A DNA stretch of 64,000 nt, taken from positions 248,001-312,000 of the forward strand of contig NZ_PIPX01000002.1 in assembly GCF_003987225.1 (NCBI RefSeq). Reading direction: 5' to 3'. The translations under genes were made by a program, and so were the position numbers. The DNA comes from Pseudidiomarina homiensis. Its GTDB lineage: Bacteria > Pseudomonadota > Gammaproteobacteria > Enterobacterales > Alteromonadaceae. Position 1 is the first letter of the stretch. Every line of letters starts with the position of its first letter. This document shows positions 25,548 through 28,322 of this stretch, piece after piece. Under the pieces are notes generated by a model. It was not told where the DNA came from. It saw only the letters and a program-made list of their open reading frames with translations, and ran no database searches.

Positions 25548-26813
25548 ATGAATCTTACAGAATTAAAAAATAAACCAGTAAACGAGCTGGTACAGCTCGC
25601 AGAATCCATGGGCCTAGAGGCCATGGCACGTACCCGCAAACAAGACATCATTTTTGCCATTTTGAAGGCTCACGCGAAAAGCGGCGAAGACATTTATGGC
25701 GACGGGGTGTTAGAAATCTTGCAAGACGGTTTTGGCTTCTTGCGTTCAGCGGACTCTTCTTACCTTGCCGGCCCTGACGATATTTACGTGTCGCCAAGCC
25801 AGATTCGTCGGTTTAACTTGCGCACGGGTGATACCGTAGCCGGCAAAATCCGACCGCCGAAAGAAGGCGAACGTTATTTTGCCCTCCTTAAGATTCGCGA
25901 AGTCAACTTCGACAAGCCAGAAAACTCCCGCAACAAAATCCTCTTTGAAAACCTTACCCCACTGCACGCTGAAGAGCGTTTGCGTATGGAGCGTGGTAAT
26001 GGCTCAACAGAAGATATCACTGCGCGCGTACTCGACCTTGCTTCACCGATTGGTAAAGGTCAGCGTGGCTTGATCGTTGCGCCGCCGAAAGCGGGTAAAA
26101 CGTTGTTGCTACAAAATATTGCGCAGTCGATTGCGGCGAATCACCCTGACTGTGTGTTGATGGTGTTGTTGATTGATGAGCGTCCGGAAGAAGTTACCGA
26201 GATGCATCGTCTAGTGAAAGGCGAAGTGGTTGCGTCGACTTTCGACGAGCCAGCAAACCGTCACGTGCAAGTGGCCGAAATGGTCATCGAGAAGGCGAAG
26301 CGCTTGGTCGAGCACAAGAAAGACGTGGTGATTTTGCTTGACTCCATTACGCGTTTAGCACGAGCCTACAACACGGTTATCCCAAGTTCAGGTAAGGTCT
26401 TAACAGGTGGTGTTGACGCCAACGCATTGCACAAGCCGAAGCGTTTCTTCGGTGCGGCGCGTAATGTTGAAGAAGGTGGTAGCTTAACGATTATCGCTAC
26501 CGCGCTTATCGATACCGGCTCGAAAATGGATGAAGTCATCTACGAAGAGTTTAAAGGTACGGGTAACATGGAATTACACCTGAACCGTAAGATTGCCGAG
26601 AAGCGCGTCTTCCCTGCGATTGACTTCAACCGTTCAGGCACCCGTCGTGAAGAGCTTTTGACCTCTCCAGAAGAGCTCCAGAAAATGTGGATCCTACGCA
26701 AAATTGTTCACCCAATGGGCGAAACCGAAGCGATGGAATTCCTCATCGACAAATTACAAATGACCAAAACCAACGACGAATTCTTCGAGGCCATGAAGCG
26801 CCAGAAATCGTAA
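25548..26813 (+). CDS. rho: Transcription termination factor Rho
   Basis: A hexameric RNA-dependent ATPase that terminates transcription. The 421-residue length is close to the E. coli value. Visible elements are the N-terminal helical part ([24 protein letters not shown]), the RNA-binding cold-shock-like domain ([11 protein letters not shown]), Walker A ([15 protein letters not shown]), Walker B ([16 protein letters not shown]) and the Q-loop region [14 protein letters not shown]. Its last codons and stop are the outer end of a long imperfect inverted repeat with 26946-26993. Confidence 0.98.
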
Positions 26814-26850
26814 GCGTTGGCTTGCACGGCCGCCCTTGGCTTCGGTGTTT

Positions 26851-26946
26851 TTATGCTACCGATTGCCGAGGGACGCCGTGAACCCATCCCTGGGGGCTTG
26901 TGTGCCGCATCCCTGCGGCACGCACCCTCGGCAATCGGTAGCATAA
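26851..26946 (+). repeat. 52-nt core element, copy 1, inside perfectly paired 22-bp arms
   Basis: The core at 26873-26924 begins ACGCCGTGAACCCATCCC and contains its own hairpin (GTGCCGCA/TGCGGCAC). It is bracketed by arms 26851-26872 and 26925-26946 that are exact reverse complements over 22 bp. Outside these, the pairing continues imperfectly back to the rho stop codon (26805-26850 with 26946-26993). The same 52-nt core occurs in the opposite orientation at 27206-27257 with unrelated arms. Confidence 0.85.
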
Positions 26947-27184
26947 AATCACCTTCGCCTGCGGGCAACCGCCCAAGCCAACACTAACGATTTGCACACC
27001 CTTGCTACTCGGGTTGCGACCTCACACACGGCACTCACTAAGCGCTTCGGCTCTCACCCTCAGCAATCGAATGCGTGAAATCACCTTTGCCTGCGGGCAA
27101 CCGCCCAAGCCAACACTAACGATTTCTACTCCATTACTACTCGACGTGCGATAGCGAAGCTTCCAGCGAAGGGCGCGGGTGAGT
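26923..27184 (+). repeat. Two diverged tandem copies of a ~132-bp unit
   Basis: Unit 1 (26923-27054) and unit 2 (27055 to about 27184) start with related sequences (CACCCTC, GCAATCG) and share a 48-nt block, 26946-26993 and 27078-27125, with one mismatch. A weaker resemblance continues (CTACTCG...TGCGA). Unit 1 overlaps the right arm of core element copy 1, so unit 2 looks like a copied arm without its core. No coding potential was seen. Confidence 0.7.
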
Positions 27185-27278
27185 TCGGGGATCCATTTCC
27201 TGAGGTGCGTGCCGCAGGGATGCGGCACACAAGCCCCCAGGGATGGGTTCACGGCGTCCTCAGGAAATGGATCCCCGA
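27185..27278 (-). repeat. 52-nt core element, copy 2 (inverted), inside 21-bp paired arms
   Basis: The core at 27206-27257 is identical over all 52 bases to the reverse complement of 26873-26924. Its arms (27185-27205 starting TCGGGGATCC, and 27258-27278) are exact reverse complements over 21 bp and have no similarity to the arms of copy 1. It lies just beyond the 3' end of the minus-strand EEP-domain gene, so the two copies mirror each other at the ends of two convergent genes. Confidence 0.85.
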
Positions 27279-27317
27279 CCTCGCCAAAAGGCCGAAGCCG
27301 AAGCCCGAGCCCGAAGC

Positions 27318-28322
27318 TTAGTCTTGGCGTTTGAGGGCGAGCTCGATGAGCAGCGGGAAGTGGTCGGAGCCGAACTTTGGTAGGCGGCGCATTTTGACGA
27401 GCATGAAGTGTTCGCTGTGGAACAGGTGATCGAGCGGCCAACGCAGGAATGGCAGTTGCGCGTGAAACGTGTTGAAAAAGCCGCGACCCATGCGTGGGTC
27501 AAGGAGCCGACTGACGCGCAGGAATTCGCGTGTGGTTGGTGACCAGGCGACGTCATTGAGATCGCCGGTGACAATGACTGGGCCGCTGTCGTTAGGGGCG
27601 CGTTTGGCAACTTGCAAAAGTTCGCGATCGCGGGGCTTCGATTTTTCGTTTTCCGTTGGGCTTGGTGGCGCTGGGTGTACACAGCGCAGTTTTACGACCC
27701 GCCCATCAGGCATCTGAATATCAGCATGAATCGATGGCACGTTGTCTTCGATAATGTTCTCAACTTGCACATTCTCGAGTGGCCAGACCGAGTAAAGCAT
27801 CATGCCGTAAAGGTTGTTTTGCGGTACTCGTACCACGTTCGGTAGATCATCTTCAATATCCGTAAGTTGCTTTTCCCACCAGTCGTCGGTTTCGACTGCG
27901 ACGATGATGTCAGGGCGTTCGCGGTTAATCATCTGAACCAGCTCGACCGCATTACGGTTATGCTCGAGGACGTTGACCGTCAAAATACGCAAGTGCTCTT
28001 CGACCGATTTTTCGTCGTGCTTGCGGTGGTAGCGCGGTACTGTTCGCGCGGCCAGCGGCGTGTATGGAAAAATCCACCAGAGCTGCCAAGCACAGCAGAC
28101 GACCTGAATACTAACAAGAAACCATGTTGTACTGCTGGCTATTGGTAACCAAATAGCGCTCGCCACGAGCAGCGTGAGCGCAACTGCCGTGAGTTGTAGC
28201 CGCGGAAAGTCCCAGAGTCGAATCAACCAGTGCGTGCGCTGCGATAAAGGCAGCAGACTGACCACAGCTAACAGCAAAGTGAAGAGTCCAATCGCAGTGA
28301 AGGCAGGGGTAAATTCGAGCAT
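27318..28322 (-). CDS. Membrane-anchored endonuclease/exonuclease/phosphatase-family protein
   Basis: A 334-residue protein with three hydrophobic segments in the first 85 residues, then an EEP (DNase I-like) domain from about 110. EEP motifs are ILTVNVLEHN, the metal Glu in VAVETDD, CVHPAPP, VTGDLNDVAWSP, LDHLFHS and the C-terminal GSDHFPLL. The catalytic residues look intact, so it should hydrolyse phosphodiester or phosphomonoester bonds at the membrane. The substrate (nucleic acid, lipid or sugar phosphate) is unknown. It is divergent from ubiD and convergent with rho across the repeat-filled gap. Confidence 0.88.
   Translation of the reverse strand: MLEFTPAFTAIGLFTLLLAVVSLLPLSQRTHWLIRLWDFPRLQLTAVALTLLVASAIWLPIASSTTWFLVSIQVVCCAWQLWWIFPYTPLAARTVPRYHRKHDEKSVEEHLRILTVNVLEHNRNAVELVQMINRERPDIIVAVETDDWWEKQLTDIEDDLPNVVRVPQNNLYGMMLYSVWPLENVQVENIIEDNVPSIHADIQMPDGRVVKLRCVHPAPPSPTENEKSKPRDRELLQVAKRAPNDSGPVIVTGDLNDVAWSPTTREFLRVSRLLDPRMGRGFFNTFHAQLPFLRWPLDHLFHSEHFMLVKMRRLPKFGSDHFPLLIELALKRQD

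Follow-up and report, generated by a model that had tools for sequence, protein, structure and literature searches.

A dispersed Gammaproteobacterial repeat with drifting but paired arms and two putative CsrA/RsmA-type hairpin loops

The intergenic region between rho and its convergent neighbour in Pseudidiomarina homiensis carries two copies of a 112-nt element, and both belong to a family of dispersed repeats in Gammaproteobacteria that share a conserved fold. The letters of the long stem are free and its pairing is kept, and two hairpins with six-base loops stand on top of it. Our best reading, which we favour tentatively and with rather less than even confidence, is that the element represents an RNA module predicted to dock a CsrA/RsmA dimer and spread as a repeat.

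Analysis of the window (the whole 64,000-nt stretch of DNA studied here) confirmed a preliminary description of two identical 52-nt cores in opposite orientation, at 26873-26924 (+) and 27206-27257 (-), between the two genes. Each core was likewise confirmed to be held in its own complementary arms, which are 97% complementary over 29 nt in copy 1 and 93% over 28 nt in copy 2 (Table 1). The core's first 18 nt appear at two places in the window, where 0.06 would be expected, and a covariance model search at E <= 1 revealed no further copy there. The folding energies of both copies, on both strands, were 8.8 to 11.4 standard deviations below those of dinucleotide shuffles, and 0 of 200 shuffles were as low. 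A short repeat of the GCCGAAGCCC type was also observed at 27294-27320, between copy 2 and the stop codon of the gene next to it; it is longer in genome G016 (locus L185).

Table 1. Positions of the features at the rho site, numbered from the first letter of the window
Feature	Position	Strand	Basis
rho	25548-26813	+	Pfam Rho_RNA_bind, Rho_N
Endonuclease/exonuclease/phosphatase family gene, convergent with rho	27318-28322	-	Pfam PF03372
Copy 1, entire 112-nt unit, starting 29 nt past the rho stop codon	26843-26954	+	Covariance model R1, 111.8 bits (copy among the 50 that built R1)
Copy 1 left arm	26844-26872	+	28/29 complementary to right arm
Copy 1 hairpin B: GCC, bulge GTGAA, CCC, loop ATCCCT, GGG, GGC	26875-26897	+	Consensus fold
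Copy 1 hairpin A, loop ATCCCT (other strand AGGGAT)	26899-26924	+	Consensus fold; 9/9 pairs covary
Copy 1 right arm	26925-26953	+	Complementarity to left arm
Inverted copy of the rho end, pairing with 26805-26835	26963-26993	-	31 nt, 81%
Possible half element: the end of a core and an arm like that of the C1:1757.85k copy (L004), other half absent	26998-27030	+	By eye, without model score
Tandem duplicate of 26913-27019, 83% identical	27045-27151	+	Sequence identity
Fossil of an older copy 1 right arm, within the tandem duplicate	27057-27085	+	6 differences from the present right arm; left arm matches all 6
Copy 2, entire 112-nt unit, starting 30 nt past the stop codon of the neighbouring gene	27176-27287	-	R1, 108.2 bits (copy among the 50 that built R1)
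Copy 2 left arm (element strand)	27258-27285	-	Complementarity
Copy 2 core, with hairpin B (27233-27255) and hairpin A (27206-27231)	27206-27257	-	Identity and consensus fold
Copy 2 right arm (element strand)	27178-27205	-	Complementarity

The fold was examined in a gapless alignment (112 columns) of 50 copies, drawn from 178 distinct parsed copies by taking a single representative of each arm type, provided that its middle measured 52 nt and its stem 19 bp or more, a selection that favours well-paired stems. The consensus consists of a 30-bp stem that carries hairpin B (GCC, bulge GTRAA, three pairs, a six-base loop and GGC) and hairpin A (two pairs, a mismatch, seven pairs and a six-base loop), and essentially the same structure was returned by RNAalifold without guidance. 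Changes on both sides of the pair were identified at 30/30 stem pairs and 9/9 hairpin-A pairs, and 91.4% of cells were paired compared with 56.0% in shuffled and 38.5-45.9% in slid alignments. The apparent fixity of hairpin B in the 50-copy set is a product of the search pattern, which required this hairpin; in copies found by the model its top stem often reads TAC/GTA, a paired change (31 of 49 parsed copies in genome G274 and at least 15 of 32 in genome G264). At least 10 of the 12 pairs adjoining the core were present in 142 of the 178 real copies compared with 14 of 887 arm-swapped controls, the arm parse taking the best of several right-arm offsets and the controls being given the same freedom. 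Pairing dropped to background after about 30 bp, and 62 of 78 stems (one copy per arm cluster) ended at 26 to 33 bp. Some stems in G264 were longer, with 4 of 5 arm clusters measured reaching 34, the upper limit set. The suggestion in the preliminary description that this might be a structured RNA or DNA element whose arms co-vary is strongly supported by the arm-pair counts, the stem lengths and the covariation. Not all copies are well paired, a point that bears on one refuting case named in the preliminary description (core copies without complementary flanks): 28 of the 178 have fewer than 9 of the 12 pairs next to the core and were left out of the stem-length and mismatch counts. On inspection by eye, many of them look truncated, contain insertions that split them or have an internal loop.

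To describe the distribution of the family, the core was searched in the own genome, its relatives and more widely. The P. homiensis genome contains seven core copies, six with complementary arms and a seventh (C1:1757.95k) that is cut short by its neighbour. The core was found at E <= 1e-4 in 10 of 26 genomes of the genus, and in at least 24 of 369 sampled genomes of the class (the own genome included in both counts); the class figure is a floor, as a maximum of two candidates was scored per genome and the 60-nt query misses diverged copies. A scan of GTDB contigs with the core pattern returned at least 117 stretches, and the matches listed include Stenotrophomonas, Xanthomonas, Marinobacter, Microbulbifer, Rheinheimera, Pseudomonas, Methylotuvimicrobium, Yersinia, Sodalis and Erwinia. 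One IMG/VR contig carried the exact core pattern, and the 60-nt core had no match in plasmids, phages and E. coli (5,426 genomes) at the limits used. Copy number ranged from a few per genome to an estimated 800, the latter in G274, where 64 matches at E <= 0.01, some of them partial, were found in 400 kb of evenly spaced sequence. G264 carries at least 138 copies (138 of 150 scored candidates), and three Stenotrophomonas strains together gave 19 copies in 1.2 Mb, 12 of which lie in opposed pairs as in the window. At Stenotrophomonas loci L315-L338 the opposed pairs flank a centre with other palindromes, and this composite, about 500 bp long, is present many times in each genome. Elements at L257 and L266 (G274) and at L283, L276 and L286 (G264) hold an extra insert of 45-50 bp inside hairpin A, alike within one genome.

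The family is of a known kind, and YPAL/RU-2 is the only described branch that we found; assigned by sequence, the window elements belong to the same superfamily but are not YPAL in the narrow sense. RU-2/YPAL, as printed in the available portion of its source (PMC2759123), is a Yersinia palindromic sequence of about 168 bp that contains the core, both hairpins, both loops and the paired arms. It aligns over 165 nt with a Yersinia proxima copy retrieved by the core pattern. In contrast, the window copies match RU-2 locally over 27 nt of hairpin B only. RU-2 has extra outer sequence and a TAC/GTA top stem in hairpin B where the window has CCC/GGG, its arms are unrelated in sequence to those of non-Yersinia copies, and its length of about 168 bp does not fit a family in which most stems end by 33 bp. 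The Rfam family RF02770 (Ysr224, Yersinia sRNA 224) has a consensus that corresponds to one arm plus the core, with the model ending where the second arm begins and the Yersinia arm sequence fixed. Weak full-length matches to this model were found in family copies (for example at L036, with 44.7 bits; the own genome reached 23.9 bits); none of 56 genomes reached the gathering score of 70 bits, all 27 matches listed being below it. Ysr224 is very probably a branch of the 112-nt repeat family. The accessible part of a review describes it as temperature-responsive in Y. pseudotuberculosis and among the most prevalent bacterial 'sRNAs', and does not call it a repeat there (PMC9029176). The repeat catalogued for Yersinia as YPAL and Ysr224 appears to belong, as a single branch, to a family that spans the class and has a precise fold.

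Other known repeats were also compared. REP/BIME elements and CGTC- or GTAG-tagged REPs are likewise dispersed, intergenic and often arranged in opposed pairs near 3' ends, but according to the part of the source at hand (PMC3733652) they are single hairpins of 20-40 bp, with stems of 8-9 bp in the CGTC families, compared with 112 nt and two hairpins on a 30-bp stem in our element. ERIC (RU-1) is likewise an intergenic palindromic repeat of similar length; the best ungapped match of two ERIC primers to copy 1 was 12/22. RF01731 (TwoAYGGAY), which by its name has two AYGGAY loops, was rejected: the own genome gave no match at E <= 10, and 8 loci gave none at E <= 0.01. Rfam matches of miRNA and snoRNA type were below gathering and were taken as chance matches of long stems. 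Within the open-licence literature searched, we found no description of the class-wide family, its free-but-paired arms, its strand bias or its CsrA-type loops.

We examined the origin of the arms at the rho site and across the family. The preliminary description had raised an alternative in which insertion of the element makes an inverted copy of the adjoining host sequence, having noticed that the pairing of copy 1 continues with decay to the end of rho. That extension is real, since 26805-26835, which includes the last rho codons, pairs with 26963-26993 (31 nt, 81%), but it lies beyond the copy 1 stem, and pairing in the family ends at about 30 bp. An inverted copy of the rho end exists, and G264, with 23 arm types among 34 copies and most of them near-perfect, also agrees with arms being made anew from the host. 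As a general origin of the arms, however, this alternative is unsupported: stem length is nearly fixed, and in G274 the 32 copies used fall into 5 arm clusters (32 of 55 G274 and 34 of 35 G264 copies were used for these counts, the weakest 9 of 64 and 1 of 36 matches having been left out). The sharing of few arm types by many G274 copies indicates that the element is copied together with its arms. Fixed arm families exist within some genomes (G274 and Stenotrophomonas) and none is shared between genomes. Three Stenotrophomonas strains hold elements of different subfamilies, arms included, at one site, and in genome G021 the core of copy 1 recurs unchanged at the orthologous site, with a different arm on either side.

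A fossil of the copy 1 right arm in the tandem duplicate allowed the direction of change to be read. Between the fossil and the present right arm there are six differences, and at 6/6 of these sites the new letter is also found in the present left arm. The left arms of G021 and G002 agree with the fossil at 4/6 sites, which indicates that both present arms of copy 1 are derived at these four sites and speaks against the inverted-copy alternative. Judged from these comparisons, the arms at the window site have changed together in place. Concerted change of this sort would fit selection for pairing, or template switching between arms, a process known from RNA hairpins at large according to the part of the source available (PMC8794818); the inverted rho-end copy may be another such event, and the fossil offers a concrete case of how long stems change letters yet stay paired. 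Faster change of the fossil arm than of its surroundings was considered and finds no clear support (6/29 compared with 12/78 over all other duplicated sites, P = 0.56); compared with the sequence just beside it (1/40) the difference gave P = 0.036. G002 has no element in the rho intergenic region, and its junction looks like a deletion because the more distant G010 and G016 carry elements there, again contrary to the inverted-copy alternative. Given these observations, we regard the inverted-copy alternative as very improbable. The comparison of orthologous sites, which the preliminary description had proposed for finding the ancestral arm, revealed swaps and deletions in the genus and in the three Stenotrophomonas strains; no clean empty site was identified in the own genus (12 of 26 genomes at site b), in the genus of G264 (one distant mate) or in those three strains. 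The inverted copy of the last rho codons is partly shared by G021. At the C1:1278k site (L214, L217, L215, L219 and L222), where G000 has the element, several relatives hold AT-rich sequence with short inverted repeats, of the GCTGTTCGCTGTTTG or other types, at its flanks.

Stem mismatches were used to determine which strand folds. With strand-symmetric mutation, changes in one arm should leave equal numbers of G.U and A.C mismatches. Counted on the core strand with one copy per arm cluster (70 copies), there were 96 A.C compared with 16 G.U mismatches, and 57 of the types C.T, T.C and C.C compared with 12 of the types G.A, A.G and A.A (T.T, 7); for isolated mismatches, cluster-weighted, the bias was highly significant (P = 3e-13). 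The mismatches common on the core strand read G.U, G.A and G.G on the complementary strand, and this bias makes the strand complementary to the core appear to be the one that folds. The complementary strand also gave the more stable RNA in 60 of 69 cases. G274 agreed (28 versus 6), but with 5 arm types; G264 (A.C 11, G.U 6) and Stenotrophomonas (7 and 5) showed the same lean without significance. In the window, copy 1 was more stable on the core strand (-78.6 versus -76.2) and copy 2 showed the reverse. A calibration on 98 terminator hairpins gave 11 G.U and 8 A.C, a set too small and underpowered for the purpose. From these data we infer that selection acts on the structure as RNA, in the strand complementary to the core. 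The signal fits RNA and single-stranded DNA alike, and strand-biased mutation may be another source of it.

The orientation of upstream genes points to the other strand. Among copies with an upstream gene within 150 nt, transcription from that gene would produce the core strand in 62 cases and the GGA strand in 27, and Rfam models Ysr224 on the core strand as well. Both observations would suit a core-strand small RNA (Ysr224) whose UCC loops would pair with the Shine-Dalgarno-like AGGA of mRNAs, and multi-copy Ysr224 transcripts have been described in Yersinia ruckeri in the available part of the source (PMC12112432). The stem-mismatch bias, however, points to the complementary strand, and we consider a core-strand small RNA quite improbable.

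On the complementary strand both loops read C-A-N-G-G-A-X-G, which is the CsrA/RsmE consensus. The high-affinity RsmE site, as given in the accessible part of the source (PMC4005645), is an ANGGAX hexaloop that sits immediately on a stem closed by a C-G pair, with N and X looped out; hairpins of the RsmZ and CsrB type that bind CsrA/RsmE share this hexaloop on a C-G-closed stem, and the element is likened to them by sequence. In hairpin A, whose loop was outside the constraint of the contig pattern (hairpin B being partly fixed by the search pattern), 68 of 70 copies had TCC; of these 68, the closing C was kept in 66 and the A opposite the N-side position in 58, and the letters are freest at N (29, 25, 13 and 1) and X (55, 10, 2 and 1). 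The GGA was unpaired in 113 of 130 ANGGA motifs in the predicted fold, and both hairpins are predicted to present an ANGGAX hexaloop on a stem, as a CsrA/RsmA site does. The two GGAs are 23 nt apart in the 52-nt core, and one CsrA/RsmA dimer can bridge two sites so spaced. RsmZ/CsrB-type binders are single sRNA genes, whereas this element is a dispersed repeat.

In the reading that we prefer, RNA made from the GGA strand would use the two hexaloops as docking sites for a CsrA/RsmA dimer; the docked dimer would act on the mRNA that carries the module, or the module would titrate CsrA/RsmA, and template switching between the arms together with selection for pairing would keep the arms matched while their letters drift. 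Several observations stand against it. Gene orientation favours the core strand (62 versus 27 as above, and 33 ++ versus 21 -- among copies with genes on both sides), the Rfam model of Ysr224 lies on that strand, window copy 1 is more stable on it, and the mismatch bias in G264 and Stenotrophomonas is not significant. The presence of CsrA did not discriminate, with a match in 32 of 33 element-positive compared with 16 of 17 core-negative genomes tested (a count that omitted G003 and G020, two of the ten element-positive genomes of the genus), and genome G221, which is 98% complete, carries an element with intact loops and gave no CsrA match. No sigma-70-like promoter was found in 26700-27450. 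In a broader form, which we hold to be doubtful, a mobile repeat would have spread putative two-site CsrA/RsmA modules, up to hundreds per genome, through many Gammaproteobacteria, and their copy number and transcription would tune the regulator, template switching and selection keeping the drifting stems paired. If the loops bind CsrA/RsmA, the family would amount to a large unmapped set of sites for a well-known regulator.

The main rival to a CsrA/RsmA module is a non-autonomous mobile repeat, MITE- or REP-like and with no host function, of which one strand would fold as single-stranded DNA to be recognised by a trans-acting transposase, so that the structure would be kept for mobility. The numerous G274 copies that share arms (5 clusters among the 32 used) suit such a repeat, as do the opposed pairs of Stenotrophomonas, and the mismatch bias would also be compatible with single-stranded DNA. 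For YPAL, the part of a review available (PMC2229807) reports target duplications of 3-26 bp, targets that span or adjoin dyad symmetry, and both empty and filled sites. Against mobility alone, the variable loop positions coincide with those of the CsrA site, which a purely mobile repeat leaves unexplained. No replication-strand bias was observed in G274 (28 with versus 27 against), and no clean empty site was found in the comparisons above. A REP with a RAYT transposase is also unsupported: an element was found within about 1.5 kb of 0 of 18 Y1 loci in seven genomes, and G264, for all its copies, gave no Y1 transposase match. We regard a mobile repeat without host function as possible, though with clearly less than even confidence.

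Only 3 of 125 copies lie inside predicted genes (simple gene finder), and the 99 other copies with genes on both sides were distributed as 33 ++, 32 +-, 21 -- and 13 -+. YPAL has been described as 'co-translated' (the word of the review, PMC2229807, in the part available) with upstream genes. In G264 the copies favour convergent 3' ends (18 of 32 copies compared with 44 of 306 gene pairs, in stretches chosen where copies were already known). Taken with the start of both window copies close behind stop codons, this preference and the scarcity of copies inside genes would suit a 3'-end element that acts as a terminator, an mRNA stabiliser or a barrier between convergent genes. In G274, however, convergent and divergent sites were equal (12 and 12), a T run follows the stem in only 1 of 70 copies, which leaves an intrinsic terminator unsupported, and G016 has an ordinary terminator after rho in addition to its elements. 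The interval 26700-27450 holds three weak 5-bp terminator-like sites compared with 0.8 expected, and the conserved loops are left unexplained by a 3'-end function. We consider such a function unlikely. Downstream of the gene that the G000 copy at C1:1278k follows, L016 and L014 (genomes G013 and G024) carry the element in tandem, with 11 and 6 copies respectively, repeating about every 134-141 bp.
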